A DNA stretch of 64,000 nucleotides from Streptosporangium carneum. Lineage in GTDB: Bacteria > Actinomycetota > Actinomycetes > Streptosporangiales > Streptosporangiaceae. The stretch spans positions 149,638 through 213,637 of the forward strand of contig NZ_BSEV01000001.1 of the NCBI RefSeq assembly GCF_027922005.1, written 5' to 3'. Positions 15,501 to 52,049 of the stretch are shown here, piece after piece. The position numbers were made by a program, and so were the translations under genes. The notes beneath the pieces are model-generated. The model searched no databases. It was not told where the DNA came from and saw nothing but the letters and a program-made list of their open reading frames with translations. Within the stretch, counting starts at the first letter, position 1, and every line of letters begins with the position of its first letter.

Positions 15501-18500
15501 GGGGCCAGGCCGGGCGGGGTGAGCTGGGACAGGCGGCCCTCGGCGGTGTAGTAGTAGGTGGTGGCCAGGTTGGTGCGAGGGTCGGTGACCTGGCGCAGGT
15601 GGCCGGTGGAGTCATACAGGTAAGAGGCCAGTACGGTGGTCTTCATCGCATTGGTGGCCGGGTCGAAGGCGGTGAAGGAGACCTGCTTGACCTGCCCTGT
15701 GTAGTCACCCCAGCCCGAGGCGACCCCGGTGGCGGTGGTGGAGGAGGCGTAGCCGATCTCCAACGCCCGGCAGCCGGCTATCAGCGTCGCGCCGCACGTC
15801 ACACCGGTTGGGACCGGTGCTAGGACCCGGGTCACTCGCCCTTGCGCATCCCGATGGTAGGTGACCGCAGACTCGGCGGCTGCCGTCTCGGCGCGGGCGA
15901 CCACCCATTTGCCGTTCAGCCTCGTGTAGGTGGTCTTCGAGCCGCTGGCGTCGGTGACGGTCAGTTCCTCGGTGCCCACGGTGATCTGTGAGCCGTCGGC
16001 GGCGTCGTGCACGCCGGTGAACTTCTGGCCGTCGCGGACATAGTTCAGCGTTTCACCGCTGGGGCCGACAAACTGCAGTGAATCGGTCCCGGTGCTCGGA
16101 TAGAAGTCCGCGATACTGGACGGCACTGCGGGGAAGCCCGCCCGCCAGCCGGGGCCGAAGACCTTGTTCTCAGTGAGTTGCTCGTCGTCCCGGTCGGCGG
16201 TGGGGTCCAGGGTGGTCAGCGTACGGCCGACCTCGACGCCGAACAGGCCGGCGTCGGTGGCCTTGACGGAGAAATCGCCGGTCTGCAGCGCCACCTCACC
16301 GGGGCCGATCTGTGCGGTGGCGTAGGAGCCGCCGAAGGCCGAGCGGTCGAGAGTGACTTTGGCGGCTGGGGAACACTGCTGCCCGGGGCCAGAGCTCTTG
16401 CTGAAACAGGCGCGGACCTCGACCGAGCCGTCCTTCTTGCCGGCGTCACGCAGGGTCTTGGCCACGTCCCAGGTGAGATCGGCGAAGTTCTTGGAGGTGT
16501 CGGTGCGGGTCTGCGGCCAGGCGGTGATCGGGGTCGGCGATCCGGGAACGGTCACATCGGCCGCTGGGACGACGATCGTGTCGTCCCAGGGCAGGAAGAA
16601 GCCGGTGCGGTACTCGTAGCGGACCCGGTCGTAGTCCGGTGCGGCCGCGGCGGCCAGGGTGACCGCTTGTCCGGTGCGACTGTTGAACTGCGGGCTGGTC
16701 ACACCTCCGGCGCCGACGCCAAAGCTGTGCGTGGTGACCTGGGAAAGGTTGTGCGCCTTATCCCGGACTTTGACGTAGATGGTGTGCCAGCCGTCTACCG
16801 GGGCGATGGGAAAGTCCTTGACCATCTTGCCCTGGGACCAGCCCCAGCCGGTGGTGATCCGGTTCGGGGTGGACGGGTTGTCCAGCCCCCACCACAGCTC
16901 GACACCGGTATTTCCTGCGTTGAATTCGCTGGAGGTGGCCGCATCCGTTCCCAGCCAGCATTTGGCGTCCTGCTGCTGTGCGCTCCACTGGCCCGCAGGG
17001 TAAGTGCAGTCGAAGTAGGAGAGGGTGGGCGCGGTCACGTCAACGTTCAACGACTGCCATTGTGACCAGGCCGATGAGGAGGAGGCGTCGGAGGCACGGG
17101 CGCGCCAGCGGACCGTCCAGTTGTCGGCCAGCTTGCCCGCCGGAATCGTGATCTTCGCCTCAGTGTTGGCGGTCACATTGTCGACCTCACCCGACCAGAT
17201 GAGACCGCTCCCCTGGGTGGGGACCGACGGGTCGTGCTCGACCTGGAACTCGGCTTTCAGCACACCACCGTCGGCGTCGTTGACCTCGGCGGCCAGTGCG
17301 GGGGTGAGGGTGGTGACGTAGAACTTGTTATTGGCCGCAGTCGCCGGCACCGCGCGCAACCTGCCGGTCCACGGGGTGGAACCGTAGGTGATCACCAGCT
17401 TGGGAGGATTGGCGGTACTGCTGTCATCAAAGAACCAGCCGAAAGTGTTGGCGCGGTTCGGTTCATCGCTGGCTGCCAGGACGAGCCCGTGGCCCGCGGC
17501 GCCGGAGGCCCACGCCTGGGCGATCGTCGTAACGGAGACCGACCAGGGGACCCTCTCCGGGTAGGAGGTCGGTCCGCAGACCGTCGGCGGTGCCGAGAGC
17601 ACCTCACCGTCGCTCGTCGAGGAGGGCTGGTTGGACCAGAAGACGCCGGGGCCGTTCCACGGGTCCGGGTTCCAGCTGCTGGTGATGCGCCGGACACGGA
17701 GGCTCTGCCCGGTCGGGCACCTGACCAGGTCTCCGAGCAGGTCCAGGCGCGCGTCCACCACCTGCTGACCGGACAGGCTGGAGGTGTCGAAGTGGATCAG
17801 GGCGCGCTGAACGTTGGTGCCGCCCGACGTACAGGGCGTACTGTCACTGATGCCGGGTGTCAGCTCCAGGCCCATGCCGCCGCCTCCGCCGGTGGTGCAG
17901 GGGGAGTTGACGGTGAAGCCGTTCGGTGAGGTGAGCGTTGTGGTGGGGTCCACCGTCACCGGATACTTCGTGGTCGGGTCGGCCAGGAACTTCGGATCGG
18001 GCTTGAGCACCAGCGTCTGCTGCCCGTTGTCGTCCTTGACGACCTTCGTGTCGATGCCGGCTTCCGCCGACGCCGCGTTCGCTGGCTGGGCTGACTTGTC
18101 AGTGGAGGAGTCGTACATGAAAGGCTCGGGGGCGGCGGCGACGACCTTGCCCTTGGGGGTGATGAGCTCCAGTCCGCCCTGCTTGGTCGTGCCGAGCCGG
18201 AGTCCCTCGGTCTGCACCGGAAGCTTGAACTCCACCGGTCCGCTGGGGCGTTCCCGCAGCACCACGTCGTGGCGGAATCCGGTGGGCAGGGCGGTGACGA
18301 CGAGGTCGGCGCCGACGCCGGCGGCGTTGACGTAAGTGGCGGTGTTGCCCTTGATCGTAGGCTTCGGCAACGGGGCGGGCCACTTCAGTGCGAACGACCG
18401 CTTGTCGCCGTGTGACATCTTCGCCAGTGGCCGGTCCTGGCCTCCGGTGGAGAACTCGACGCCGGCTTTAGCCGCTCTCGGTCGGAGGACACCGTTGTCC

Positions 18501-18868
18501 TCGATCAGTGTCGTGTCCACCGCGACCCATTGTTCGCCCTGCTTCACGCGGACGATACCGCTAACCGTTTCGGTGGTGAAAGTGGAGTCGGGGTTGGCAT
18601 AGGTGAGATTCGATTCGGTCGTCTCATTGGTGATCAGCACCCGGCTGCCCTGGAGGCGGGCGGTCAGCGCGGCCGACACCCGGTCCGGGCGTTCGGTCAC
18701 CGTCTTGGCCTGCGGTGGCTTGAGTTTGGGCGGGGGAGTGGGGGCTGCTTGGGCTGGCTGTGTCGATGTCGCCATCAGGGCGACGGTGAGGCCCGCGGCC
18801 AGGAGTCGTTCGAGTGACGGACGTCGGCGTAACGGCGTGGCGGAGCGGACCATCAGGGGGGAGTGCAC
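12527..18868 (-). CDS. Secreted Rhs/YD-repeat polymorphic toxin
   Basis: A protein of about 2113 residues. The start is GTG 18868 with GGAGG just upstream (ATG 18853 is possible). A signal peptide (LAAGLTVALMATSTQPAQA) is followed by a DNRLRE-like domain (~320-500), Ig-like stretches (~500-850), many YD/RHS repeats (for example YDAAGRQIERR, YDSFGRANSTTD) over ~950-1850, and the RHS core (GARLYNPQTGRFLQTDPIP, then KLDVDG) near residue 1950. The repeats should form a shell enclosing the tip. The last ~155 residues are the variable tip: one strongly hydrophobic stretch (NWWVASTAGLIAGIAVSSI), then Thr/Val-alternating strands and basic patches, with no nuclease or deaminase motif I know. It overlaps the membrane protein at 12530. 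Confidence 0.88.
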   Translation of the reverse strand: MHSPLMVRSATPLRRRPSLERLLAAGLTVALMATSTQPAQAAPTPPPKLKPPQAKTVTERPDRVSAALTARLQGSRVLITNETTESNLTYANPDSTFTTETVSGIVRVKQGEQWVAVDTTLIEDNGVLRPRAAKAGVEFSTGGQDRPLAKMSHGDKRSFALKWPAPLPKPTIKGNTATYVNAAGVGADLVVTALPTGFRHDVVLRERPSGPVEFKLPVQTEGLRLGTTKQGGLELITPKGKVVAAAPEPFMYDSSTDKSAQPANAASAEAGIDTKVVKDDNGQQTLVLKPDPKFLADPTTKYPVTVDPTTTLTSPNGFTVNSPCTTGGGGGMGLELTPGISDSTPCTSGGTNVQRALIHFDTSSLSGQQVVDARLDLLGDLVRCPTGQSLRVRRITSSWNPDPWNGPGVFWSNQPSSTSDGEVLSAPPTVCGPTSYPERVPWSVSVTTIAQAWASGAAGHGLVLAASDEPNRANTFGWFFDDSSTANPPKLVITYGSTPWTGRLRAVPATAANNKFYVTTLTPALAAEVNDADGGVLKAEFQVEHDPSVPTQGSGLIWSGEVDNVTANTEAKITIPAGKLADNWTVRWRARASDASSSSAWSQWQSLNVDVTAPTLSYFDCTYPAGQWSAQQQDAKCWLGTDAATSSEFNAGNTGVELWWGLDNPSTPNRITTGWGWSQGKMVKDFPIAPVDGWHTIYVKVRDKAHNLSQVTTHSFGVGAGGVTSPQFNSRTGQAVTLAAAAAPDYDRVRYEYRTGFFLPWDDTIVVPAADVTVPGSPTPITAWPQTRTDTSKNFADLTWDVAKTLRDAGKKDGSVEVRACFSKSSGPGQQCSPAAKVTLDRSAFGGSYATAQIGPGEVALQTGDFSVKATDAGLFGVEVGRTLTTLDPTADRDDEQLTENKVFGPGWRAGFPAVPSSIADFYPSTGTDSLQFVGPSGETLNYVRDGQKFTGVHDAADGSQITVGTEELTVTDASGSKTTYTRLNGKWVVARAETAAAESAVTYHRDAQGRVTRVLAPVPTGVTCGATLIAGCRALEIGYASSTTATGVASGWGDYTGQVKQVSFTAFDPATNAMKTTVLASYLYDSTGHLRQVTDPRTNLATTYYYTAEGRLSQLTPPGLAPWRMEYDTTGRLAHVQREAGAVDPTWAVAYNVPIGGTDAPINLTVTETAKWGQSTDLPMTGTAIFPASHLPPRGGTGAYQPAAGDWEYGQLIYTDVNGRLVNSAAHGAGVWQITSSRYDDKGNTVWHLSADNRAQALTPTADTSSYVAARPDTAERADLLARITTYSADSDILTEIGPARLATLASGELATVRDNITNVYDEGKPTTDITYHLVTTTTTTPMVLDRVADENDKRTVTTGYDPLVSGDPSGWTLRKPTTSSSAQKSDIVQRTRYDAAGRQIERRMAESNGADAGTTAVSYYTAAAHPTVTACGNKPQWAGLMCRTAPKSQPPGAPISIKLITYGYYGNEVTTTETSGAVTRTTTLTYDAAGRSIKSKIDVQPASASTPIAEATYTYDPATGLQTTKSIGSDTISMGYDSFGRANSTTDATGVTSTAEYNLDGQIATSNDGKGVTTFTYGGIDAKGRAERRNLITKIDTGGAGVFAGAYDIAGRLILQRYPNGLEASSRYDNAGKQIGLSYAKNGTEWLSFTAAYDLNGRIAAQQGSAGSAQRFDYDGAGRLTKVQDTYGGTCATRIYGFDRNTNRTSLTSYPADNAGSCSTTTTPNVQQHHYDAADRITDDGYTYDNLGRTTRVPSAQVTGGADLEIEYFVNDKASALTQGSVQSTFILDPGGRIKTMTTIGGPRPGTTTHHYSGTEDSPTWISEADGTWTRNVPGLSGLGAIQNSDGTSTLQLINLHGDIVATSDNRPDATGVHAYSETTEFGTPRAQTGDSSRRYGWLGSHERSSDAIGGLVFMGARLYNPQTGRFLQTDPIPSGSANAYDYCSADPVNKLDVDGTSEKPIWSSTTTSSKKERDTIADNFLEVGFAAIVTVATKPVANWWVASTAGLIAGIAVSSIETTVETVTTTTVNVYLETRTVLIWDTPMEDLIKRKGKKRSVQERRTRTVTTVTTRWRVITVIIPKFNAPRITETGPWFTRVTVTTKYSSWKRGL

Positions 18869-18898
18869 CCACCCTCCATTCAGACAGAGGAAAGACAA

Positions 18899-19018
18899 GG
18901 CCGTCAGAACGTACGATGGAGATCAACGATCATGTAAGTGGCCATAAGGGATCAAAAGGATCACTCCAGGCGTATGCACCGCGAGGAAACGCCTCATGCG
19001 TCACAGGAGATAGGCATC
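18899..19018. other. Upstream region of the Rhs gene
   Basis: About 120 bp with lower GC just upstream of the toxin start; it presumably holds the promoter. No coding signal, and no operator could be recognised. Confidence 0.35.
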
Positions 19019-20009: not shown

Positions 20010-20234
20010 GATGGAAGTACCGCTTTGATCTGAGTGGATCGATGGGTTGCGGGCACGCCCGGTGTGGGCTGTCTTGGCGGATGACCACGCTGGTACGCGC
20101 CCGTGGGCGGGTCAGATGGCGGGGCGGTCGCCGGCGAGCAGGTCCGCCTCGGCCGTGGCCGAGGCGACCGAGCTTTTCCGGACCGAGGACTCGTCGATGC
20201 GCTTCGTCGGCGCGTGGTGATAGCGATTGGCCGC

Positions 20235-20792
20235 ATGAACACTGATCACGCCGCTCCCGCCGACCTCGCCGCGCTTCGTACCGCCTTCGACGTCGGAGCA
20301 TGTGAGCCACCCCTGGGTTGGGACGCTGTGCACGTTTTCGAGGCAGAGCACGGGGTCGTCCTGCCGGAGCCGTATCGAACGTTCGTCGCGGAGATCTGCG
20401 ACGGGTCCTGTTCGGGCCCGCCTGACCACGGACTGGTGCCGTTGGCTGATCTGCCCGACGACTGGGGAGACGGTCGACCGCAGCGGGTCTTGGCCAGTCC
20501 CTTTCCATTGACGGAAATGTGGTCATGGGAGGAGGATCCGCGCCCCCAGGAGGAAGTCGATCTCCTTCTCAACCCGGTCTTCGACCATGGCTCGATCGTT
20601 CTGGGCACCGACGGGTGCGGCATGTACTGGCATCTCATCGTCAGCGGACCGCACCGGGGGCACGTCTGGCAGATCAGCGGCGAGGGCGCGGGCCCCTTCG
20701 GCGCCGAGTTCGGCTTCACCACGGGGGATCCGGGCTTCGCCGGATGGGTGAAGCACTGGGCTGCAGGCAAACCCTGGTTCGATGCCGCTTGA
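20235..20792 (+). CDS. SMI1/KNR4 (SUKH) family immunity-type protein
   Basis: A 185-residue protein of the SUKH superfamily. It shows the conserved pattern around residues 28-50 (WDAVHVFEAEHGVVLPEPYR, then TFVAEICDG), the central acidic Trp segment (MWSWEEDP) and a late GFAGWVKHWAAGKPW helix. SUKH proteins are frequent immunity proteins of bacterial polymorphic toxins (family knowledge). There is no toxin gene beside it; the nearest is the Rhs gene 1.4 kb to the left, which already has a coupled partner, so this may be an orphan immunity gene kept for protection from kin toxins (inference). It is bracketed by two copies of a decayed HTH gene. Start ATG 20235; the ribosome site is weak. Confidence 0.82.
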   Translation: MNTDHAAPADLAALRTAFDVGACEPPLGWDAVHVFEAEHGVVLPEPYRTFVAEICDGSCSGPPDHGLVPLADLPDDWGDGRPQRVLASPFPLTEMWSWEEDPRPQEEVDLLLNPVFDHGSIVLGTDGCGMYWHLIVSGPHRGHVWQISGEGAGPFGAEFGFTTGDPGFAGWVKHWAAGKPWFDAA

Positions 20793-21395: not shown

Positions 21396-21720
21396 CGGTT
21401 CGCCTCGGCCACCCCAGGGACCTTGAGGGAGGACCCAGCGGCGACAGTCGTCCAGGTCGACGTTGCCGCCGCAGATGATGGTGACCATGCGGCGGCCGAC
21501 GAAGCGGTCGGGGTCTTCCAGGACGGCGGCGACACCGAGGGGCGCCGGGGGCTCGACGACCAGGCCCGCATGCTCCAGAAGCGTCCGCATGCCCGCGACG
21601 ATGGACGTCTCTCGGACCAGGACGGCGTCATCGGCCACCTTCAGGAGGTCGTCCAGCACGGCGGGGATGGGGTATCGAACGGCGACGCCGTCCCGCTCAC
21701 CGAAATCAAGGACGGTGACC
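21396..21720 (-). pseudogene. Threonine-dehydratase-like (PLP fold II) tail
   Basis: The minus frame reads VRYPIPAVLDDLLKVADDAV, then LLEHAGLVVEPPAPLGVAAV and MVTIICGGNVDLDDCRRWVL. This is the C-terminal end of a serine/threonine dehydratase-type enzyme (GGNVD is the family's late motif). The N-terminal ~220 residues with the PLP lysine are missing. The break coincides with the start of the KAS III relic on the other strand, near 21720. Confidence 0.6.
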
Positions 21721-22246
21721 CCGAGCAGGTCCAGATCTTCACCAAGCTCGGCCTGCGTCATTATCGAAAGAGCCCACTCAGCCTGCCCGAGCTCTGCAAT
21801 CGTTCGGTCGGCGAAACCGTGCGGACGAGCGGCGTGGCTCCGACCGACGTCGGTGCGGTACTGCTGGCGACGACGGTCAACTCGATCCACGCCGTGGGGC
21901 TCGACTATCCCGAGGTGGCGCAGATCCTCGGCGACCATGGCCTCATCGACACCAAGCTGTGCTGTGGCGAGCCATCCCGCCGGACCACCCGCAGGAACGG
22001 ATGGAAAAGGTCTTCTGCGGAAACTACAACATGCTGATCCAGCGCAGCCTGATGCGGGAGCTCGGCGTCGGCGAGAGGGCGTTCTATCTGGAGAACCTTC
22101 AACGACTGGGCCACGTGTTCTCCTGTGACGTATTGATCAACCTCAGCGACTACGCGGCCTCGACGTCCGTCGCGCCAGCCACGACCTTCACCTGCCTGAC
22201 GGTGGGCTACTTCCGGTGGGGTTGTTTCGTCTTGCAGAAGACCTGA
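21715..22246 (+). pseudogene. KAS III-like pseudogene, internal deletion
   Basis: The plus strand first reads a KAS III N-terminal piece (EQVQIFTKLGLRHYRKSP, then VGETVRTSGVAPTDVGAVLL) to about 21955. It then shifts frame to a C-terminal piece (VFCGNYNMLIQRSLMREL, then LQRLGHVFSCDVLINLSDYA and YFRWGCFVLQKT, stop at 22246). The middle, including the catalytic Cys region, is absent (roughly 120-150 codons). Its LGH...LSDY segment resembles that of the intact KAS III-like gene at 50061. It probably once supplied a chain-starting or acyl-transfer step for cluster 1. Confidence 0.72.
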
Positions 22247-22265
22247 CGACGCCGGTCGCCGGCCG

Positions 22266-23423
22266 TCACAGCTCGGTCTCGGCGATGATCTCCCTCATGA
22301 TCTCGCTGGTTCCACCCGCGATCGTGCCGAGTCGCGTGTCCCTGAAGACGCGGGAGATCGGCGCCTCCGAGAGATATCCATGACCGCCGAAGATCTGTAG
22401 GCACTGCCCCGCCACCTCGACGGCGAGCTCGGTGGCCCGCAGCTTCGCCATGGCGCATTGAGACACCGCCGACTTCCCTTGACTGTGCAGCCAGGCCGCA
22501 TGGTAGGTGAGCTGGCGCGCCGCCTCCGTGTGGCTCATCAGCTCGGCCAGGCGATGGCGTATCACCTGGTGACCTGCGATCGTCTTGCCGAAGACCTCGC
22601 GCTCGTTCGCGTATCGTCGGGCCAGCTCGAGCGCGTAGTCGATCTCCCCCAGCGCCAGGAGGGCCGCCGCAATCCGCTCGAGCTGAAACGCCTTCATGAT
22701 CCAGAAAAACCCGGTGTTCCTCCGGCCGAGAAGCTGGCCGGTCTCGACCACGACGTCCTCGAATTGCACGCTCGCGGTGTCGGAGCAGTGCCACCCCACC
22801 TTTTCCACCGGGGTCCTCGTCACCCCCGGCGCTCGGGCGTCGACCACGAACAGGCAGATGTCGCCGGAGCCGGTGCTCGCCGCCGAGCCATCGCTCATCC
22901 TCACCGCCGTGACCATGAAGTCCGCATTCAGACCGTTGGTCACGAAGGCCTTGCTGCCTCGGATGGAGTATCGATCACCCACCGACATGGCCCGTGCTTC
23001 ACAGCGGATGCTCGACACATCGGATCCGGCCTGGGGCTCCGTGATCGCCAGCGCAGCGATCTTGTCGCCCTGGATGGCCGGCTTCAGATACTCGAGCTTC
23101 TGATGATGGTCGCCCGCCAGCTGCAGGTAGGTCGTCGCCATGTAGCTGTGGACGGACATCGCGCCGCGAAAGCCGCTGTGGCCGAGCCGGCCCAGCTCCT
23201 CCAGGTAGGCGACCGAGTGAAAGAACGGGAGCTCGCGGCCGCCGTATGCGCTGGGGTAGTGCAGTCCCAGCAGCCCCTCCTCCGCGAGCAGCTTCCACGC
23301 GTCGCGTGGAATCCGGCGCTCCGATTCCCACGCCTCCAGATGCGGGGCGATGCGCTCGCACAGGAACCGCCGCGTTCGCACGCGGAACGCATCCGTCTCA
23401 GGAGAAAAGTAGATCGAGTTCAC
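22266..23423 (-). CDS. Acyl-CoA dehydrogenase family flavoenzyme
   Basis: A 385-residue acyl-CoA dehydrogenase with an N-terminal helical domain (1-115), a middle beta domain with the FAD/substrate signature ALAITEPQAGSDVSS (~125-140), and a C-terminal helical domain with QIFGGHGY and TIAGGTSEIMREII. The usual MCAD catalytic Glu position is Gly here (AGGTSE); a Glu in QLERIAA fits the alternative base of isovaleryl-type enzymes. In natural-product clusters such enzymes often desaturate carrier-bound acyl or aminoacyl groups, which fits the ACP gene at 24723 on the same strand. It appears intact, unlike several neighbours. Start MNSIYF at 23423. Confidence 0.88.
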   Translation of the reverse strand: MNSIYFSPETDAFRVRTRRFLCERIAPHLEAWESERRIPRDAWKLLAEEGLLGLHYPSAYGGRELPFFHSVAYLEELGRLGHSGFRGAMSVHSYMATTYLQLAGDHHQKLEYLKPAIQGDKIAALAITEPQAGSDVSSIRCEARAMSVGDRYSIRGSKAFVTNGLNADFMVTAVRMSDGSAASTGSGDICLFVVDARAPGVTRTPVEKVGWHCSDTASVQFEDVVVETGQLLGRRNTGFFWIMKAFQLERIAAALLALGEIDYALELARRYANEREVFGKTIAGHQVIRHRLAELMSHTEAARQLTYHAAWLHSQGKSAVSQCAMAKLRATELAVEVAGQCLQIFGGHGYLSEAPISRVFRDTRLGTIAGGTSEIMREIIAETEL

Positions 23424-23472
23424 ACCGTTGTCCTTGACCTGCTGGGGGCTTTCTCGCCGACGCGAGGGAGTG

Positions 23473-24102
23473 TCATCTGGCGCTGGCGCCGTAAAGGAAC
23501 GTGCGCGCGTTCAGCTCGAACAGCCCGGCCTGCTCCCCGGGCGTCAAGCGGCTCCGCATCTCCTCGAGCTTCGCTCCTGGGTTTCCTGAGAGGTCATAGA
23601 GCGGTGCGTCGGATCCGAAGATGACCTGGTCGGGTGCCTTCGCGCAACCCTCCAGCACCATCTCCAGGCCATGATCCGAGAGCAGCTGAAAGGATGAGAT
23701 GTCCGAGTAGAGGTTCCTGGGGTGCCGCTCGAGCAGCTCGATGGTCCCCTCCAGGTCCCAGACCATGCCGTGCGCCGGCGCGATCGGCACGTCAGGGAAC
23801 CGCCGCATGACCTCCTCAAGGCTCTGCGGATACCGTTGCTCTCGGCCGAGCGTCGGCAGAGAGGCCCCCTCGCCGAGCGCCGGACCGAAGTCGGCGATCA
23901 GCAGGATCGACTCGACGATGGCGTGGGTGTCCGTCTGCGACAAGAGCCGCCGGGCGTTTCGGTCCGAGAGGTGGAGGCGTACGGCGCGCTCGACATTCCC
24001 GCCGCCGGACTGACCGCCGTCGAACATTGAGCCTGCGACGCCCGCGATGAATCCAGGTGAGATGCAGCGTGCGTCCGCCGGGTGGACATGGATGTCAATC
24101 AT
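23473..24102 (-). CDS. Amidohydrolase_2-type protein, probably shortened
   Basis: A 209-residue protein beginning MIDIHVHPADAR, with the HxH metal site of the amidohydrolase superfamily. The C-terminal half is family-like: FPDVPIAPAHGMVWDLEGTI, LYSDISSFQLL and IFGSDAPLYD with the metal-binding Asp. The family is normally about 270-300 residues. The central strands that usually carry a substrate-channel HTG-type motif appear to be missing between GPALGE and LPTLGREQ, so the gene is likely an in-frame deletion product. Start ATG 24102 is preferred over the upstream TTG. It lies between the acyl-CoA dehydrogenase and ACP genes and probably shared their operon. Confidence 0.65.
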   Translation of the reverse strand: MIDIHVHPADARCISPGFIAGVAGSMFDGGQSGGGNVERAVRLHLSDRNARRLLSQTDTHAIVESILLIADFGPALGEGASLPTLGREQRYPQSLEEVMRRFPDVPIAPAHGMVWDLEGTIELLERHPRNLYSDISSFQLLSDHGLEMVLEGCAKAPDQVIFGSDAPLYDLSGNPGAKLEEMRSRLTPGEQAGLFELNARTFLYGASAR

Positions 24103-24149
24103 GGATGCCAATCAAGGACGCCAGTCATGGAGTCATGGAGATCCCAGTC

Positions 24150-24450
24150 CCCATGTCTAATCATCTGCCACGACGCGATGAAGCGTCGGGAAGATCTCGG
24201 GATCGCTGTAGCCAGGGAAGCCGTCCACCGCCTTTCGGCAGATGAGGTCATGGGAGTGCTGGAAAACCGGCTTCTCCTTGCTCATGAAATTCAGGTTGCG
24301 ATAGCGATTCTCTCCGTCCTGCAGGTGGACCGACAGGGCGCGCCGCAGCGAGTCAATGGAACCCGGTGACTCTCTCGTTCTCGGCGGACTCGCGCGCGGG
24401 CGGCTTGTAGATGAGCTGGTCCTTCCAGTGCCTGATCTCCTTGGCGCCGA
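24150..24450 (-). pseudogene. Eroded coding remnants of unknown family
   Basis: Two protein-like stretches in different minus frames: AAALIGAKEIRHWKDQLIYK, ending TGFH and a stop near 24353, and further on NRYRNLNFMSKEKPVFQHSH, then CRKAVDGFPGYSDPEIFPTL, ending at a stop near 24160. They look like the C-terminal end of one or two genes broken by frameshifts. I do not recognise the family. Confidence 0.4.
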
Positions 24451-24723
24451 TCAGGGCGGCCGCGATCGCCGAGATGATCGGCGGCCGGGATCGCCGACTG
24501 TGGAGATCTTGGAGAGCTCGATGTGCTCGGTGACCTCGTCGAGCTCTTTGCCGATGAGGTCCTCCAGGCTCAGCAGCAGGTTGATGTACTGCCTCGAGTC
24601 CAAGCCCGGCGACTGGAGCGGCGTGGACGGGGACAGGTCGGCCTGACGAACCGTCCCGTCCTGGCTGAGCATCGCGACCAGCACTCGGCACACTTCGCCA
24701 TATGGGCTTACCTGAGTCGACAT
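24451..24723 (-). CDS. Acyl carrier protein, C-terminus altered
   Basis: A 90-residue carrier-like protein from ATG 24723 (MSTQVSPYGEVCRVLVAML). The helix-II region SPGLDSRQYINLLLSLEDLI holds the presumed phosphopantetheine Ser (Asp-Ser-Arg rather than the usual Asp-Ser-Leu), followed by the ELDEV...ISTVGD segment expected of an ACP. After residue ~78 it turns into Arg-rich nonsense (GRRSSRRSRPP), suggesting fusion to the eroded DNA beyond. It could carry the acyl chain activated by the fatty-acyl-AMP ligase whose fragment lies at 32705 (inference). Function may be retained since helices I-III are present. Confidence 0.62.
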   Translation of the reverse strand: MSTQVSPYGEVCRVLVAMLSQDGTVRQADLSPSTPLQSPGLDSRQYINLLLSLEDLIGKELDEVTEHIELSKISTVGDPGRRSSRRSRPP

Positions 24724-24833
24724 TGGCACTCTCCACTGGGCGTTCAAGGCGAGAACGGCTTGGACGGTCACCCGGACGGATCTGCGGTCAAGAATGGAGA
24801 AATGGTCACCGAGCAACAGGGGCTGCCATTGAG

Positions 24834-25077
24834 CTTCTCCATTTCATGGCACCGAACCAGCCTGCTGTCCTCGAAGAGTGCGACGCCGCCGTCGTGAATC
24901 GACACTTGATGGTCAGAGAGGTCAATCGTTGATTGCGCGCGTCCCGGCTTCGTTGTTCAAGCTTTGTCGTCGGGCGCCACGCTACCCTCAAGATCTTTCC
25001 GTTTCAAGGTTCGACGGTGGAGTGGCAGTTTCGGTCCGTTTCGATTTTGATTGTCGCCGAGAGACGCGACCTGGCGG
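24834..25077. repeat. Inverted repeat, left arm
   Basis: About 240 bp that matches, inverted and imperfectly, 25828-26067. It is a copy of the carbamoyltransferase upstream region plus its first ~35 codons, facing left. The start ATG has become GCG (frame reads ARNQRLTSL) and the frame then breaks, so this copy is dead. Confidence 0.75.
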
Positions 25078-25827
25078 TGTGTTCTCCGCGCACTGGGTGT
25101 CGCGCGCGAGAGCCTGCCGTGGCGGCAACCGGCCATGGACATCGGGGTTTCCGCCTCGACGATCTCGCGCACGGCCAACGGCCTGAAACCGATGTGACGG
25201 CAGAGGAAGTCATCGCTGCCGCCAGGCTCTTCCGCGTCGAACGTGACGCTGAGGGCCGCTGAACGGACTGGCCCCAGTACGTCACCGGCAAGCCGGCCTC
25301 GCTCGCCGCCCGCGTCGAAATCGACTAGGTCTGGGCAGTGCCGCGCGCACGCTAAAAGGCGGATCCAGCTCAAACGCGACCCCACAACGGACAGGACCGG
25401 CGCTTTCTCAAATGGCGAGATGAATGGCGAGTGACCTACGACAGGGCCCGGGTCGGCGACGCCGCACCGACACCGTGACCGGCAAGACCACCATCACCGC
25501 CGTGTCGGCCTATTGTCAACTCTCCTCTTCGAGGATTGCGTCGAAGACCCCCAGGGCGTACTCCTGAAGTCGGTCTCGCGTCGCTTGTTCTCCAGGCTGA
25601 TCCAGGAAGCCTGGAGAATACGCACTCGCGACGGTCACCACTACTCCCGACCCTCGGGACACACGTCCGTCGGCGCGTCCGAAACCGCGCGGCGCCCATC
25701 GGTCGAGTTCCTGTTCGAGGTAGCTCCGTCGACTCGTCACAGCATCGAGAGTCCGCGGCGATTCGCGGTGTGACCAGCACTCCTTCGATCCGATTTTCAC
25801 CTACGACGCGGTAACGGAGAACGCTCC
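25078..25827. other. Spacer between inverted arms, eroded
   Basis: About 750 bp. A minus ORF at 25516-25800 (94 codons, with RSYLEQELDRWAPRGFG and RLQEYALGVFDAILEEES) looks mildly coding but I recognise no family. The rest reads as scraps with stops in all frames. Confidence 0.35.
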
Positions 25828-26067
25828 GCCAGGTCGCACCTCTCGGCGATAATCAAAATTGAGTCGGACCGAAACTACCGCTCCACCGTCGAACCTTGAA
25901 ACGGAAATATCTCGAGGGTAGCGTGGCGCCCGACAACAAAGCTTGGACAACGAAGCTGGGAAATGCGTAATCAACGACTGACCTCTCTGGGCATCAAGTT
26001 GAGCCACGACGGCAGCGTCGCCCTCTTCGAGGACAACAAGCTGGTTCAGTGTCATGAAATGGAGAAG
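25828..26067. repeat. Inverted repeat, right arm
   Basis: The intact counterpart of 24834-25077. It covers the upstream region and first ~35 codons of the carbamoyltransferase gene and therefore contains its promoter. Confidence 0.75.
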
Positions 26068-27280
26068 CTTAATAACAACCCTCGTTACTCCGAGTACAGA
26101 CTTACGGGGAGTGAGCTGTCCGACCTGCTCCGTGACATTGGATATGAGTGGAGCGAAGTGGACGCGCTCGTCATCGACGGCTGGCACACGACCCCGTTCG
26201 AGGTGACCCTGGGCGGGGAGACCGTGCCATTCGAGGTGGCGGACTATGGCCATCCCTACGACGTCCGCGCGAGTCCGCCGGCGAAGAAGCCCGCGTTCAG
26301 CCCCTATTTCGAGCGGGATTGCACGAGCTACCATCATATTGCCGGGCACATCTTCTCCGCCTATTGCAGCAGCCCCATGGCCCAACGAGGCGAGACCTCG
26401 TTCGTGTTCGCCTGGGATGGCATGTCGTTCCCCCAGCTCTTTCACTATGACCGGGGCGGCCAGCTCGAGTGCCTGGGCTACCTGTTTCTCATGAGCGGGT
26501 TCATCCACACGTACTTCGCCGCGAATTTCGCTCCGTACAAGGAGTGCCGGCCGAATGACCTCTCGCTTGCCGGCAAGCACATGGCCTACATCGCGAAGGG
26601 GCAGAAGCAGCCGTCCCTCATCGAGGGCTTTCACTCAATCTTCGGGAAGCCGGTCGCCAAGACCGGGAGCGTCACGACCCACGACCAGATGCTCGAGTTC
26701 GAGCAAGCACTGCTGTTGAAGCCCGTCTTCCGGGCCAAGGCCAGCCGCTTCAGCGACGACGACATCCTCACCGCCTTTCACCACTTCATCGAATTCATCG
26801 AAGAGGTGCTGGTCCGGACGCTGGCCGCGAGGCTGAACGAGTTCGACGCAGGAGCCCGGAACCTGTGCCACGCCGACGGGTGCGCGCCGAACATCAAGTG
26901 GAACAGCGCGATCCGGCGCTCCTGCGACCTGAAGGAGCTGTGGATTCCGCCGTTTCCCGACGACACCGGTGCCGCCATCGGCATCGTCTGCTGCGAGCTC
27001 GTCGCCAAGCACGGCTACGAGTCGATCGACTGGGATGTCTACAGCGGTCTTCCAGACCGAGGGCCCGCTGCAGACGGTCAACGAGCGAGAGAATCCGGAG
27101 ATATACGCGCTGCTCAAGCACTACTCGGAGTACAGCGGGCTGCCGATCCTTTGCAACACCAGCGCGAACGACCTCGGTTCCGGGTTCTCTCCTGATGTCC
27201 AGAGCGTCGCCGAATGGGGCCATGTGAATTACATACGGAGCGACGGAACGCTTTACACGCGGACGACAGAGGTCGAGTGA
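25963..27280 (+). pseudogene. Carbamoyltransferase, frameshift and deletion
   Basis: Frame 1 from ATG 25963 encodes a NodU/CmcH-type carbamoyltransferase N-terminus (LGIKLSHDGSVALFEDNKLV, then YHHIAGHIFSAYCSSP and FAWDGMSF) to DWDVYSGLP near 27050. The tail continues in another frame as VFQTEGPLQTVNERENPEIY, then SGLPILCNTSANDLGSGF, ending at 27280. Between them the conserved GPRALGNRS-type segment is absent, about 110 codons. Intact members transfer carbamoyl phosphate-derived carbamoyl groups to hydroxyls of natural products. The gene starts the rightward half of cluster 1 and stops about 30 nt before the NRPS gene. Loss of activity is very likely unless the frameshift is a sequencing error. 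Confidence 0.75.
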
Positions 27281-27309
27281 TCAGTAATTCACAGCGGCGA
27301 GAGGAACGG

Positions 27310-29145
27310 ATGTCAACCAGTGCGGACGCCCCTCACGAATTCCGGGGTGGGCTTCATGAGGTCTTCCGCCAGCGGGCGAAAGAGCTGCCTTCGCGGACCG
27401 CGGTCGAGTTCGGCGGCGAGAGCCTGACCTACCAGGAGCTCGACGGCTCCTCCGATCGGCTCGCCGGCTGGCTTACCTCTCGGGGCGTGAAGACCGGCGA
27501 TGTGATCGGTCTGTGCTTCCCGCGGGGAATCGACATGGTCGTCGCCGTGCTCAGCATCCTCAAGGCGGGGGCGGCCTACCTGCCCATCGATCCGGACCAT
27601 CCGTCGCCCCGCACTCACCACATCGTCGAACACAGTCGAGTGAGCCTCGTCGTCGCCCCTCCGGAACTCGCGGGCTTGTTCGACCGACCCGATCTCACGC
27701 TCGTCGCGTACGAGCGCAGCGCGTTCGCCGACACCGCCCCGCCCGACTGGACCCCGGTGGCGGTGCCCGAAGACGCGTCGGCCTACGTCATCTACACCTC
27801 GGGAACGACCGGCAAGCCCCACGGCGTCATCGTCCGGCACGGGAACGTCGACAGACTGTTTCGTGAGACGGAGCGCTGGTTCGGGTTCTCCCAGGCCGAC
27901 GTCTGGACCCTGTTCCACTCGATCGCGTTCGATTTCTCCGTATGGGAACTCTGGGGTGCGCTGCTGTACGGCGGCAAGGTGGTCATCGTGCCGTACGTGA
28001 CCACCCGCACGCCCGAACGCTTCTACCAACTGGTCGTCGACAAGGGGGGCACGGTCCTGAGTCAGACGCCGACCGCGTTCCGCTCCTTTGACGCGGTCGA
28101 CGCTCACCGCAGCGCCGACCTCTCTCTCCGGCACATCGTCCTGGGCGGTGAGCCGATCGACAAGGACGTCGCCGCGGCGTGGCTGGCGCGTCGCGGCGAG
28201 TCCCGCCCGCGGCTGGTGAACATGTACGGGATCACGGAGACGACCGTGCACGTGACGTACCGGCCGCTGACGCCGGACATACTCGAGGCGTCCGAGCACT
28301 CGCCCATCGGCGTGCCGATTCCCGACCTGACCATCCGGCTTCTGGACGACGCCGGGCAGCCGGTCGCGCACGGCGAGATCGGGGAGATCCACGTGGGCGG
28401 CGCCGGCGTCGCCGCCGGCTACCTGCACGACGCGGATCTCACGGCCTCTCGGTTCCCGCACCTGGACGCCGGCGACGCCAGGCCGGAGCGGATCTACCGC
28501 ACGGGCGACCTCGGCGTCACCTACGACGGCCTCGAGCACTTCTTCGTCGGGCGCGCGGACACCCAGATCAAGCTGCACGGCTACCGGATCGATCCGCGGG
28601 AGATCGAGGCCGTCGCGGACGCGCAGCCGGGCCTCTCCGGCTCCGTCGTGCTGAAGGTGTCGCGCTCCGACGGCGACGCCCACCTCGTGCTGTTCTCCCT
28701 GTGTGGTCGGGGGACCACGCCTGCTCAGCGCGACGCCGCCCGCGAGGCGGTGATGACGCGCATCCGCGAGTCGCTCCCCGCGTACATGTGCCCCGTCCAG
28801 TGCATCCTGCTCGAGGAGCACCCAAGGAACCACAACGGCAAGGTCGACCACGACTCGCTGCGGGCGGTGTACCACGCGCAAGACCCGTCGCTGCGGCTGG
28901 ACACGATCGACGGCTACTCCGAGAAGGTCCGGGCCATCTGGGAGCAGGTCCTGAGGAAGCCCGTCGTCTCGTCGGACATGGACTTCTTCGAGGGCGGCGG
29001 CACTTCGCTCGATCTCATCCGCATCATGGCGGAGACGAAGAACCAGTTCTCCGTGGAGGTCGACCTGGGTGTCTTCGCCGAGGGTCTGTCTCTCGACCTC
29101 TACGTCGAACAGGTCGGCAAGCAGCTCGCGTCCGAAGCCGATTGA
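27310..29145 (+). CDS. Adenylation-carrier protein for Thr (SyrB1-like)
   Basis: A 611-residue A-T didomain NRPS protein. Core motifs are YTSGTTGKPHGV (A3), FDFSVWELWG (A4), NMYGITET (A5), YRTGDLG (A7), GYRIDPREIE (A8) and NHNGKVD (A10). The carrier domain has FFEGGGTSLD with the phosphopantetheine Ser. By eye alignment to GrsA the pocket code is D-F-W-S-V-G-M-V-H(-K), one of the threonine codes. No condensation or thioesterase domain is present, so Thr is loaded for modification in trans, as by SyrB1 in syringomycin biosynthesis. Start ATG 27310 with GAGGA just upstream. The halogenase gene follows 39 bp later. Confidence 0.9.
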   Translation: MSTSADAPHEFRGGLHEVFRQRAKELPSRTAVEFGGESLTYQELDGSSDRLAGWLTSRGVKTGDVIGLCFPRGIDMVVAVLSILKAGAAYLPIDPDHPSPRTHHIVEHSRVSLVVAPPELAGLFDRPDLTLVAYERSAFADTAPPDWTPVAVPEDASAYVIYTSGTTGKPHGVIVRHGNVDRLFRETERWFGFSQADVWTLFHSIAFDFSVWELWGALLYGGKVVIVPYVTTRTPERFYQLVVDKGGTVLSQTPTAFRSFDAVDAHRSADLSLRHIVLGGEPIDKDVAAAWLARRGESRPRLVNMYGITETTVHVTYRPLTPDILEASEHSPIGVPIPDLTIRLLDDAGQPVAHGEIGEIHVGGAGVAAGYLHDADLTASRFPHLDAGDARPERIYRTGDLGVTYDGLEHFFVGRADTQIKLHGYRIDPREIEAVADAQPGLSGSVVLKVSRSDGDAHLVLFSLCGRGTTPAQRDAAREAVMTRIRESLPAYMCPVQCILLEEHPRNHNGKVDHDSLRAVYHAQDPSLRLDTIDGYSEKVRAIWEQVLRKPVVSSDMDFFEGGGTSLDLIRIMAETKNQFSVEVDLGVFAEGLSLDLYVEQVGKQLASEAD

Positions 29146-29184
29146 CCGCCGGTCTGTTAGCCCCAGATCTCGGGAGTTGATGTC

Positions 29185-30120
29185 ATGAGTCAGTTCAAGC
29201 TCACGCCCACCGAGCTCGGCGAATTCCAGCGGAACGGCTACGCCGGGCCGTTCACGCTCTATGAGCCGTCGGAGATGGCCGACCGCTGGCGGAAGGAGCG
29301 GCTGAGGCTGCTCGATCGGAGCCAGTCCGTCTATCAGGACACGGAGGCGATCTCGCAAGGAACCAACATCTCCAACTACGACCGCCACCTCGACAACGGC
29401 TTCCTGGCCGAGCACATCGCGCGGCCCGAGATCGTCCAGCGCGTGACGAGCATCCTCGGCGACGACGTCATCTGCTGGCGATCCGAGTTCTTCCCGAAGT
29501 ACCCCGGTGACGAGGGCACCGACTGGCATCAGGCGGACACGTTCGCCAACGCGGGAGGAGAACCCCAGATCGTCTGGGCCGAGGACAAGGAGTACGGCGG
29601 CACGATCACGGTGTGGACGGCTTTCACCGAGGCCACCGTCGAGACCGCCTGCCTGCAGTTCATCCCGGGCACCCACCGGCAGATGTTCTACGACGAGAGC
29701 CTGGGGATGCACTACGACCCCGAGGTGAACCGCAACAAGAACAAGAACGGCGTGAACCGGGGCTTCTTCGGCTACGACTATCGCCAGCTGCAGATCGATC
29801 CGGACTGGTCTCCGGACGAGAGCAAGGCAGTGTCGATGGAGCTGAAGCCGGGGCAGTTCATCATCTTCTGGTCGACGCTGATGCACGCCTCCCACAGCCA
29901 CGCCGGGCGGACGCAGGAGATGCGCCTCGGCTTCGTCAGCCGCTACGTTCCGGCGTCGGTATACGTCTATCCGGACCTTGACGAGATCCGCGAGTACGGC
30001 GGGCGCATCTCGCTCGACCGCTTCGGGTGCGTGCTGGTGTCGGGTGAGGACCGGTACCGGCGAAACCGGCTCCTGACCCACACGACGACCGGCATCCCGT
30101 TTCGCAGGAACGGCACATGA
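29185..30120 (+). CDS. Fe(II)/2-oxoglutarate halogenase (SyrB2-like)
   Basis: A 311-residue PhyH-superfamily protein. The iron-binding motif is H115-Q-A117 (TDWHQADTF): Ala replaces the usual carboxylate ligand, which opens a chloride site and marks the halogenases. The distal His is H234 ([10 protein letters not shown]) and the 2-oxoglutarate Arg is R253 (FVSRYVP). Many stretches match SyrB2 as I know it ([39 protein letters not shown]). SyrB2 chlorinates C4 of Thr held on SyrB1, and the preceding gene encodes exactly such a Thr-carrier. Predicted product: 4-chloro-L-threonyl-carrier. The stop overlaps the next start (ATGA), so halogenase and aminoacyltransferase are coupled. Confidence 0.93.
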
Positions 30121-31298
30121 GTGGGCCCAAGGAGTGGGCGGCGCACGCCGTCGAGGTCTTCGGCCAGGTCAAGCCGCTGGCCGATCGGCTGCCGCAGGAC
30201 CGCTTCGAGGTGGTCGTGGAGGACCTCGAGCGTCTCGGCGAGGCTTCCCAGCGCCTGTTCGACCGCCTCGCGCACGAGGTCGGCCTGCGCCAGGCGATTC
30301 ATGTCTGCTCCGCGCCGCAACAGGCCCCCAGCTCGTTCGGGCTCGCGATCGAGCGCCGGATCGGCGGCTTGCTCCGGGACGTCGAACCGCTCGAGGAGTG
30401 GGCCCGGGGCACCGGGGACGCGCTGCTCGAGCGCGCCGCGGCCAGGGCTCGCGACCAGGCGCCCCGGGTGGTGCGGATCAACACGCGCGACGGCCTGACG
30501 CTCGACGCGTTCACGGCCGGTGATCGGACGCGTCCCGCGGTGATGCTGGTCCCTCCCTGCGGCATGCCCGTCGAGCTGTCGCAGCGGTGGCTGCGAGCGC
30601 TCGGCGAGGAGCACTTCGTCATGACTTGGCAGACGCGCGGCCTGTTCTCCCCGCGTGATCCCGAGGCTGACATGGCGAGCGACGTGGCCACTCAGGCCGG
30701 CGATCTGCTGGCGGTCATGGACGCGCTCGACGTGCCGACCTGTCACGTGATGGGCCTCTGCGGCGGCGCGGTGATCGCGCTCGAGGCGGTCCACCGACGC
30801 CCCGAGCGCTTCCGGTCAATGAGCTTGTGGCACGGAGACTACGACTTCGGGGCCCACTCGACGAAGACCGATCACCAGCGGGACGTCCAGGCGCTGATGG
30901 AGATGGGAGCGGACAGCCAGGCGAAGGCGACCTCCTACCAGAAGCTCATGCGTCGCCCCGCCGCCCTGGCGACGATCCCCGAGCGGGTCGCACCGCTGGT
31001 GATCTATCCCTACGCCACGCCGACCCTGTTCCATCACTATTGTCGGCTGAACCTCGCGATCATGTCCTTCGACGTCACGGATCTGCTCGGCCGCGTTCCC
31101 CACCCGACGCTGGTCGTGACGAGCCGGACCGACACGACCGCACACCCGGAGGGTTCGCATCGCGTGGCGCGCGAGCTCGCCCGTGCCCGTCTCGTCAAGG
31201 AGCCCAGCGGGGATCATCTCTCCGTCTTTGACGCTTCGCCCCGATTGACCAAACTGGCCGTCGACTTCATGGCGGCGCAGCATTCGACCTACGTCTGA
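30117..31298 (+). CDS. Alpha/beta-hydrolase aminoacyltransferase (SyrC-like)
   Basis: A 393-residue alpha/beta-hydrolase-fold protein with a ~115-residue helical N-terminal extension. The nucleophile elbow is GLCGG with Cys215 in place of Ser; the acid is likely in SRTD and the base His in SGDHLSVF. This Cys version is the hallmark of SyrC, which shuttles Thr or 4-chloro-Thr between the SyrB1 carrier and an NRPS carrier. The gene follows the halogenase with an ATGA overlap and precedes a carrier-protein gene, an obvious acceptor. The acceptor partner itself is inferred, since no full NRPS lies in the window. Confidence 0.88.
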
Positions 31299-31304
31299 AG
31301 GACA

Positions 31305-32708
31305 ATGATCAACACCGCATCCCTCGAAATCGAGAAACTCAATCGTGACCTCGGCGAACTCGCCGAGGAATGCGTCCTCGTGCGGGACAGGACAGGGGAC
31401 CGGCGGGTCGTCGCGGTCTTCGTCGTACCGGGCGAGGCCGCCCCCGCGGTCCTGCGGGCAACGGCCCTCTGCGAGGAGGCCGACGCGGACGGCGAACTCT
31501 CCCTGTTCGAGCCCGACGACGACCTGATGATCTTCCACCGCAACCGGCGGGAGGCCGACTTCATCTTTCGCGAGGTGTTCCGGGACAACGAATACCTGCG
31601 CAACGGAGTGAGGTTGCCGGATCGCCCGACCGTGATCGACGTCGGCGCGAACATCGGCGGGGCCTCGGTGCTGTTCGGAAAGGCGCGCCCGGACGCCCGG
31701 ATCTTCGCAATCGAGCCCGTCCCTCACCTCTGCCGGGCCATCGAGCTGAACGCCAGGCTGCACGACATCGACGTCGTGGTCATTCCCTGCGCGGTGGGCG
31801 ACACGCGCCGGCAGACGGTGGTCACCTACTATCCGAAGAACACGGCGATGTCCGGTCTCCTCGCCGACCAGGCGGACCGGGAGGTCCTCAAGGCCTATCT
31901 CGTGGGCCATGAGGAAGCCGCCTCCGAGGCCGGGCTCGACGCCATGGTCGCCGAGCTGCTCGTCGGCGAGTCCATCGAGTGCAGCGTGAAGACGCTGGGG
32001 CAGGCGCTGGAGGGCCATCCCATCGACCGCGTCGATCTCTTGAAGATCGACGTCGAGAAGGCGGAGTGGCAGGTCCTGCACGGCATCAACGACGAGCTGT
32101 GGCAGCGAATCGATCAGGTGGTCATGGAGGTCCACGACATCGACGGCCGGGTCGCCGACTGCGTCTCCCTGTTGGAGAGCAAGGGCTTCAACCTGCTGGT
32201 CGATCGAAACCAGGACCTGTTGAACACGAACATGTACGGCGTCTACGGCCGACGGGGACCCGTGGGACCGGATCTCTCCTCCCCGCCCTGGCGCCGGCCG
32301 CTCTCGACGCGCCGGGCGCTGGCCGGAGCCATCCGTGACGAGCTCGCCGGCGAGCTCGCCGACCTGGCGGTGGAACGGTTCCAGTTCGCCACGGCCCTGC
32401 CGAGGGACGCCCACGGCGAGATCGACGCGGCCGCGCTCATCGCCCGGCTCTCGGAAGGACCCGCTGAGGGGGGCCCGCTGTCCGAGATCGAGGAGAAGCT
32501 CGCCTCCATCTGGCGCAGGATCTTAAAGGTTGAGGACATCTCGGCGTCCGACGACTTCTTCGCCCTGGGCGGGACGTCGCTGAAATCGGTGCGAATGGTG
32601 CTCGAGGTGGACGAGGTTTTCGGCGAGAACGTGCTGCCGCCGGATCAGCTGTTCGGCGGCAGCCGTTTCAACGAGATCGCGGCGATCATCCGCAGGAACA
32701 TGAGATGA
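31305..32708 (+). CDS. FkbM methyltransferase within A-domain remnant, plus carrier
   Basis: A 467-residue protein. Residues ~1-45 (EIEKLNRDLGELAEECVLVR, then RRVVAVFVVPG) resemble the stretch right after motif A8 of adenylation domains. Residues ~75-330 are a FkbM-type SAM methyltransferase (TVIDVGANIGGASVLFG, then DLLKIDVEKAEW). Residues ~365-385 resemble motif A10 (ATALPRDAHGEIDAAAL) but with Glu for the catalytic Lys. The C-terminus is a carrier domain (FFALGGTSLKSVRMV). So only the small adenylation subdomain, interrupted by a methyltransferase, survives beside the carrier; it cannot adenylate alone. It likely methylates a carrier-bound substrate and may accept chlorothreonine from the SyrC-like enzyme. 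It overlaps the next ORF by ATGA. Confidence 0.82.
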   Translation: MINTASLEIEKLNRDLGELAEECVLVRDRTGDRRVVAVFVVPGEAAPAVLRATALCEEADADGELSLFEPDDDLMIFHRNRREADFIFREVFRDNEYLRNGVRLPDRPTVIDVGANIGGASVLFGKARPDARIFAIEPVPHLCRAIELNARLHDIDVVVIPCAVGDTRRQTVVTYYPKNTAMSGLLADQADREVLKAYLVGHEEAASEAGLDAMVAELLVGESIECSVKTLGQALEGHPIDRVDLLKIDVEKAEWQVLHGINDELWQRIDQVVMEVHDIDGRVADCVSLLESKGFNLLVDRNQDLLNTNMYGVYGRRGPVGPDLSSPPWRRPLSTRRALAGAIRDELAGELADLAVERFQFATALPRDAHGEIDAAALIARLSEGPAEGGPLSEIEEKLASIWRRILKVEDISASDDFFALGGTSLKSVRMVLEVDEVFGENVLPPDQLFGGSRFNEIAAIIRRNMR

Positions 32709-32990
32709 AGAGGTCGGCCCGGCCCCTGCTGCTCTATCCCCACGGGCTGGAGTTCATCCGCGCGTTCCGGGCCTGTCTCCTTTCCGGGGTCGCGCCCGTG
32801 CCCTGCCACCCGCCGAGGAACATGCGCACGGTAGAGCGTCTCCTTGCCGTCGCCCAGAACGCAGGCCTCCGTCGTCCTGACCGATGAGACGATTCGAAGC
32901 CGTGCGGGTGAGAGTCTCGCGGAGGCCGACAGCGCCGACGAAGGTCACGAGTGCGTGTGCGACCGGTCGGGCTCGGCCGCGACCGCGTTG
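32705..32990 (+). pseudogene. Fatty-acyl-AMP ligase N-terminal fragment
   Basis: The ATG at 32705 overlaps the preceding stop and starts PLLLYPHGLEFIRAFRACLL, then SGVAPVPCHPPRNMRTVERL, a typical fatty-acyl-AMP ligase N-terminus. After about 55 codons the frame slips, and VVLTDETIRSRAGESLAEAD continues in another frame to about 32990, where homology ends. The rest (about 450 codons) is missing. An intact ligase would have loaded a fatty acid on an ACP to start the product. Confidence 0.72.
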
Positions 32991-51862: not shown

Positions 51863-51935
51863 GTTGCCCTTCTCATCTGTTCGTGGACGAGTCTGTTCGT
51901 GGACGAGGCGGTCGTCCTGCCGCGTCCGTCTGTGC

Positions 51936-52029: not shown

Positions 52030-52049
52030 GGTCGGGGGTGAGAGCCCGG

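Follow-up and report, generated by a model that had tools for sequence, protein, structure and literature searches.

Kutzneride cyclopropane formation, on which Neumann and Walsh reportedly published in 2008, has Ile as its substrate and uses KtzA, an acyl-CoA-dehydrogenase-like (ACAD) partner of a SyrB2-type halogenase, with neither a SyrC protein nor an FkbM methyltransferase-carrier (FkbM-T) known in it, and the coronamic acid cyclase CmaC is not known to be an ACAD. From Streptomyces sp. OH-5093, Thr3 is said to have been described by Fullone in 2012 and Thr1 by Scaglione in 2017. The kutzneride steps are laid out in a scheme of PMC8407142; the part of PMC8748450 concerned with CmaA-CmaE gives, for coronamic acid, loading by an adenylation-carrier (A-T) protein, movement by the shuttle CmaE to a second carrier and processing there; and the part of PMC8949500 concerned with syringomycin has SyrC moving the 4-chloro-Thr group to a second carrier, with an A-less end of the C-T-TE type (condensation, carrier, thioesterase) in SyrE. 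Here we describe a related locus in a stretch of 64,000 nucleotides from Streptosporangium carneum (contig NZ_BSEV01000001.1), called the window below, which a preliminary description had presented as holding the full syringomycin logic for making and moving 4-chloro-Thr. Judging by its sequence, the locus preserves the core of a lipopeptide-type cluster from which the part with the fatty-acyl-AMP ligase (FAAL) and the nonribosomal peptide synthetase (NRPS) has been deleted. We think that a lipopeptide relic with an intact Thr-tailoring unit, working in the steps proposed below, is the best explanation of the whole, and a reasonably probable one.

The A-T gene (Table 1) starts with the ATG at 27310, preceded by a stretch resembling a ribosome-binding site, and its stop codon ends at 29145; the longer open reading frame (ORF) that can be drawn mechanically from 27214 runs into the preceding frame. 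Its product matches AMP-binding (1.1e-85) and PP-binding (1.7e-08), and has everything expected of a Thr-specific protein of this kind: the A core, the A10 Lys, the carrier and a Thr pocket code. The pocket was read again as D-F-W-S-V-G-M-V-H, identically to the first reading, and is completed by the A10 Lys. For comparison we used related loci, the best 80 of the 228 found in a halogenase search, to which all counts out of 80 refer. With these and the window as the pool, the code could be read in 69 rows of A-T matches with at least 36% identity. DFWSVGMVHK stands in 35 of them, among which are the window and loci of Pseudomonas (L035, for example), with DFWNVGMVHK in another 22. In the PDB the pocket region is matched best by 5n9w ('Adenylation domain'), which we take to be Thr1 of Streptomyces sp. 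OH-5093; its aligned pocket reads DFWNVGMVH. In three loci (L031, L034, L067) a halogenase and a SyrC-like gene occur with a best A-domain match that lies on the opposite strand and has the code DIWQSTADDK, which is not a Thr code; these loci either act on another substrate or lack an A-T partner within the DNA examined.

The second gene codes for a halogenase of the SyrB2 class (453 bits and 3.4e-136 against TIGR01762, for a cut-off of 226). The assignment to a PhyH-family halogenase with HQA in place of HxD was sound: in an alignment with SyrB2 (477 bits over 304 residues) its WHQA falls on the WHQA of SyrB2, and the distal MHAS His and the SRYVP Arg are retained, the score against CytC3 being 388 bits. 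WHQA is found in 81 of 81 rows, a count biased by the presence of WHQ in one of the search patterns. The protein is the sole TIGR01762 match in its own 9.8-Mb genome, and a search of 16 genomes from the genus at E 1e-60 gave matches in three, namely its own and two others at 44%. The third protein, the putative shuttle, has a weak Abhydrolase_1 match slightly below the cut-off. Its proposed nucleophile, Cys215, does not vary in any of the 65 aligned rows (at least 25% identity over at least 150 residues, window included), and neither do Asp339 and His367, whose conservation suggests that they are the partners of Cys215. A SyrC-like gene is present in 64 of the 80 loci. The enzyme identities, and with them the logic of Thr chlorination and shuttling, are thus supported by sequence, and we regard chlorination of threonine on the A-T carrier as very probable.

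This trio is of a known kind and is known in actinomycetes. The preliminary description had made its occurrence in an actinomycete a point of novelty, which does not hold, and the idea of a first such cassette in actinomycetes is ruled out by Thr1/Thr3 of OH-5093, by the 5n9w match and by the related loci, 50 of which (out of 80) are actinomycete going by their record titles. What makes the locus interesting is that FkbM-T and ACAD extend the unit and that this wider unit has outlived the assembly line of its cluster.

The A-T and halogenase genes are separated by 39 bp, and the halogenase and SyrC genes overlap by 4 bp. The coordinates and residues first given for three coupled genes were right, and a fourth had been missed: FkbM-T starts 6 bp past the end of SyrC, so that the coupled run is one of four. 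In this fourth protein the C-terminal half and the carrier align to the A-subdomain and T of NRPSs, and an N-terminal A-subdomain half can be read from the sequence and from the strands of a predicted model. The two halves flank the FkbM methyltransferase, as in an interrupted adenylation domain; there is no AMP-binding match, and the protein begins directly at the A-subdomain. Its best Foldseek match is the pyochelin synthetase 7en2, which presumably also has a domain inserted in its A domain. An ordinary piece of an NRPS module is ruled out by the missing A core. It is likewise ruled out that FkbM-T proteins of this type are common in the family of the strain, only 8 of 297 genomes giving a match at E 1e-60, its own included; in the other seven (eight matches, L107-L114) identity is at most 41% and an A core lies upstream in 6 of 8. 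The set with FkbM-T comprises 18 rows, of which 17 were aligned, L002 being left out for a frameshift.

Domains in related loci were accepted at a coverage of at least 55% (FkbM-T, C domain), and absences mean little in loci that end at contig ends, such as L007, L014, L022, L027 and L072. On this basis FkbM-T is present in 17 of the 80 loci. ACAD accompanies it in the same locus in 16 of the 17, and for L001 on a second contig of the genome, compared with 5 of 63 loci lacking FkbM-T; these rows are related and do not represent independent events. Two of the 17 are the close relatives treated below. The remaining 15, two Sorangium among them, share the order A-T, halogenase, SyrC, FkbM-T, followed by BenE (5/15), TEII (12/15) and ACAD (15/15). 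A C-domain match was found in three of these compact loci and in none of the other twelve, the DNA around the locus having been searched, and L012, L021 and L029 have further A-domain-type ORFs. In Sorangium L005 all seven genes are present, between Obg-like and QueD-like genes (read without a family search). We found no description of an FkbM-T/ACAD cassette in the open-licence PMC literature, which is weak evidence of novelty.

The possibility that this is a plain SyrB1/SyrB2/SyrC cassette has to be weighed against this recurrence. The chlorine would then be kept, 4-chloro-Thr would be released or passed to some NRPS, and FkbM-T and ACAD would have served elsewhere in the making of the lost lipopeptide. 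It is in line with this that the A code is the same as in Pseudomonas SyrB1-type loci, that the Actinomadura relative has a ready acceptor in its A-less terminal C / T-TE, and that paper titles name OH-5093 as a 4-chlorothreonine strain. The company of FkbM-T and ACAD in 15 distant loci, most of them with no C-domain match (some with the extra A-domain-type ORFs), speaks against this reading, and we consider the plain cassette unlikely. The enzymes and the shuttle of the syringomycin logic stand; what the first account lacked is FkbM-T and ACAD, and because an FkbM-carrier and a halogenase-linked ACAD are present, a further processed Thr derivative is a serious alternative to 4-chloro-Thr as the product.

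What the compared sequences display directly is the identity of the genes, the active-site residues, the recurring gene set, the deletion and the lack of relaxation; from these we infer the order of the steps, the acceptor, the site of methylation, the chemistry of the ACAD and the expression of the remnant, as follows. The A-T protein would load Thr, and the halogenase would make 4-chloro-Thr on its carrier. The SyrC-type Cys enzyme would then move the aminoacyl group to a second carrier, most likely that of FkbM-T with its missing A core, the natural acceptor because it is the only other carrier found among the seven genes of Sorangium L005; we hold this transfer to be probable. FkbM would O-methylate the 3-OH of the Thr-derived group, and ACAD would act on the carrier-bound product, most plausibly by closing a cyclopropane with loss of chloride, as KtzA would, which would yield 2-methoxy-1-aminocyclopropane-1-carboxylate (2-methoxy-ACC) on the carrier. 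In those relatives that have more of the cluster, the unit would supply the NRPS at its terminal, A-less C / T-TE. Chlorine may therefore be a temporary handle, absent from the final product.

For the last of these steps the evidence comes from phylogeny and gene content. Twenty-six halogenase-linked ACADs, that of the window among them, form one clade (support 100/99) against eight ACAD paralogues of its own genome as sole outgroup; the clade mixes Thr-coded sets with sets coded DAFFLG(V/M)TFK and leaves the place of the window and its two close relatives inside it unsettled. In L074, L075, L078 and L079 a halogenase, an A domain coded DAFFLGVTFK, which we take to be an Ile/Val-type code, a TEII and an ACAD occur together, with BenE in two. 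Two of these are compact sets of halogenase, A, TEII and ACAD (L074 10001-14872 and L079 9971-16100); L079 also has a separate carrier and BenE, and a SyrC or FkbM-T match is found in neither. Among 390 Pseudonocardiaceae genomes 24 have a close halogenase, and of the stretches read from four of the 24, three (G522, G362, G309) combine a halogenase with an A domain and an ACAD, G522 being kutzneride-like in gene content.

An ACAD might instead desaturate the chlorinated (methoxylated) aminoacyl carrier to a dehydroamino acid, with no ring formed. The proteins have ACAD domains throughout, prolyl-carrier dehydrogenases are among their relatives, and the Glu of the QLER position, presumably the base of isovaleryl-CoA-dehydrogenase type, is kept in 22 of 22 rows (QLER itself in 19), so that ordinary dehydrogenation is possible. 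Their membership of the same clade as the ACADs beside DAFFLGVTFK-type halogenase sets, the gene set of kutzneride cyclopropane formation, tells against desaturation, which appears distinctly improbable to us. Ring closure is itself a tentative proposal and on the doubtful side, resting on gene association.

Several observations, beside the retained Glu, weigh against our explanation and should be acknowledged. The window does not have the whole compact set, no match to TEII or BenE being better than E 0.29; its ACAD lies apart from the core operon and is divergent to it, unlike that of the 15 compact loci; in the halogenase tree, whose deep order is unsettled, the window does not group with these loci; the fourth Pseudonocardiaceae stretch (L153, G433) has a halogenase and no ACAD match; and the true acceptor could be one of the unrelated NRPSs that the genome encodes. 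We are accordingly cautious about the widest form of the proposal, namely a widespread, undescribed route from Thr to free or NRPS-bound 1-amino-2-methoxy(or hydroxy)cyclopropane-1-carboxylate by cryptic chlorination, FkbM-carrier shuttling, O-methylation, ring closure by ACAD, TEII release and BenE-type export, the window being a lipopeptide-type cluster shrunk to its building-block unit; this we regard as doubtful. The explanations considered here overlap in the confidence we give them and do not exclude one another.

The lipopeptide origin of the locus is best seen from its closest relatives by halogenase, Actinomadura sp. KC216 (two contigs, L001 and L092) and S. phaeoluteigriseus (L002), with 91% and 85% identity, the remaining loci of the 80 reaching at most 70%. 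By blastn the window aligns to both, with gaps, across 21432-32928. Both have the order carbamoyltransferase, A-T, halogenase, SyrC, FkbM-T, acyl ligase, FAAL; upstream, S. phaeoluteigriseus has a PhyH dioxygenase, an amidohydrolase, an ACAD, a ketosynthase III and a BenE transporter. The first Actinomadura contig stops within the FAAL gene and the second starts inside a FAAL, and because of these breaks we infer that the two adjoin. After FAAL the second contig goes on with T-C-A-T-C, (unassigned N-terminus)-A-T-C-A-T-C, T-TE, a LysE exporter, PhyH, amidohydrolase, ACAD and ketosynthase III; its NRPS (L092 3-14356), of lipopeptide type, has three A domains, and T-TE comes after its last C without an intervening A domain, as in the syringomycin arrangement. 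In S. phaeoluteigriseus FkbM-T has a frameshift (L002 13380) and the NRPS frames after FAAL are broken (G002 C56 154192-164524), these breaks being either sequencing errors or the sign of a second decaying copy.

Compared with these relatives the window is missing about 1.8 kb with the ligase, together with all but a short piece of FAAL and NRPS, and its carbamoyltransferase is short by about 360 bp relative to L001/L002. The remnant of FAAL is 70% identical to residues 85-138 of the S. phaeoluteigriseus protein. The decay of neighbouring genes, already noticed in the preliminary description, can thus be mapped as truncations and deletions, and its remark that the syringomycin NRPS is lacking is true of the window as the result of a deletion, the A-less C / T-TE end being present in the Actinomadura relative. 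A copy of the missing NRPS elsewhere in the genome was sought and rejected, the ten best matches being only 34-40% identical (short pieces to 52%), as was one of FAAL, with at most 43% identity apart from the 54-residue remnant.

Could the whole locus then be dead, a pseudogene remnant in which the core genes are merely not yet broken? NRPS, FAAL and ligase are lost and flanking genes are truncated, and over a short time core genes may survive by chance. Three-taxon NG86 estimates (window and the two relatives), a method biased in GC-rich genes, give on the window branch a dN/dS (omega) of 0.20 for ACAD, 0.39 for A-T, 0.12 for the halogenase, 0.24 for SyrC and 0.36 for FkbM-T (418 codons, L002 being used over residues 1-422 only), none of which exceeds the values of the other two branches. 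For the truncated carbamoyltransferase the figures are 0.26 on the window branch against 0.24 and 0.15, and window-specific amino-acid changes make up 40 of 92 in this gene versus 113 of 489 pooled over the five (Fisher p 9.5e-05). The five core genes, open across about 6.6 kb, therefore evolve without relaxation as far as these sequences tell, and the acceleration of the truncated gene beside them is not what a uniformly dead locus would lead one to expect. The damaged amidohydrolase piece is not accelerated (6/37, omega 0.16), and some of the damage may therefore have arisen too recently to register in a selection test, a further point against us; on balance a dead locus seems somewhat unlikely.

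Table 1. Features of the locus, in window coordinates.
Feature	Position	Strand	Basis or remarks
Ketosynthase-III-like gene fragments	21684..22246	+	Two blastn pieces against L002 3036-3901
Halogenase-linked ACAD-like flavoprotein, full length	22266..23423	-	Domain matches, clade
Amidohydrolase, in-frame internal loss of about 84 codons	23473..24111	-	Domain match, comparison with relatives
Amidohydrolase start and end of a mostly lost second PhyH dioxygenase	23869..24354	-	blastn against L002 252-710
Small carrier-protein-like ORF	24451..24816	-	68% over 97 residues to the equivalent Actinomadura place
Carbamoyltransferase, C-terminal part gone	25963..27195	+	Carbam_trans_N only; deletion near 27046
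SyrB1/Thr1-type stand-alone A-T, Thr code DFWSVGMVHK	27310..29145	+	Domain matches, pocket read
SyrB2-type Fe(II)/2-oxoglutarate halogenase, WHQA replacing HxD	29185..30120	+	TIGR01762, SyrB2 alignment
SyrC/CmaE-type alpha/beta-hydrolase, putative aminoacyl shuttle	30117..31298	+	Cys215, Asp339, His367
FkbM methyltransferase and carrier on split A-subdomain, no adenylation core	31305..32708	+	Probable shuttle acceptor
54-residue FAAL remnant (FAAL opens the deleted NRPS)	32702..32863	+	blastn 32715-32921

Regarding the damaged flank, the PhyH reading relies on an L002 match from base 3 and on a full-length relative at L092 15927-16847, and the ketosynthase relative (L092 18940-19851) has a partial ACP_syn_III match. 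The small ORF may be a carrier by our reading of an LDS-type motif, without a Pfam match. About 135 bp at 24831-24964 (minus strand) resemble the 5' region of the L001 carbamoyltransferase gene (6348-6480) and repeat, in inverted orientation, a short part of the region near 25932. Further away, a frame of 2131 residues with an RHS repeat (12527-18922, minus strand) looks like a protein of the polymorphic-toxin type, for which a SUKH (SMI1/KNR4) protein about 1.2 kb from it (20085-20792, plus strand) may provide the immunity. A TauD-type dioxygenase adjoining a class I/II aminotransferase (51020-53537, minus strand) may represent a further small biosynthetic operon.

If the further steps hold, Thr halogenation outside syringomycin-type systems would be a hidden step towards an alkoxy-cyclopropane amino acid in many bacteria. 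Such a compound would resemble the plant ethylene precursor ACC, and it would be the product of seven genes in a compact unit, all of which could be cloned together from Sorangium L005. The locus would also provide an example from nature of a shuttle that loads a methyltransferase-carrier deprived of its own adenylation core. Should the chlorine be kept instead, the clusters of S. phaeoluteigriseus and Actinomadura sp. KC216 still point to a lipopeptide that contains a residue derived from Thr, either chlorinated or chlorinated at an earlier stage, and that may bear a carbamoyl group.

Among known systems, syringomycin of Pseudomonas syringae shares with the window the Thr-coded A-T, the WHQA halogenase and the Cys acyltransferase; the window differs by its FkbM-T, linked ACAD, carbamoyltransferase and FAAL, and by the deletion of its NRPS. 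Thr1/Thr3 of OH-5093 are likewise an actinomycete Thr A domain and a halogenase, and the Thr1 pocket differs at one position only (N for S), although at 367 bits over 511 A-domain residues the window protein falls short of a close copy. With interrupted adenylation domains FkbM-T has in common the FkbM inserted in the A-subdomain and the carrier that follows, whereas it stands alone and has neither A core nor A10 Lys. The coronamic acid pathway shows the same logic of loading, shuttling and processing, for a substrate of Ile type and with no FkbM, and the kutzneride KtzA/KtzB/KtzC/KtzD set is alike in combining a SyrB2-type halogenase with an ACAD-like flavoprotein.

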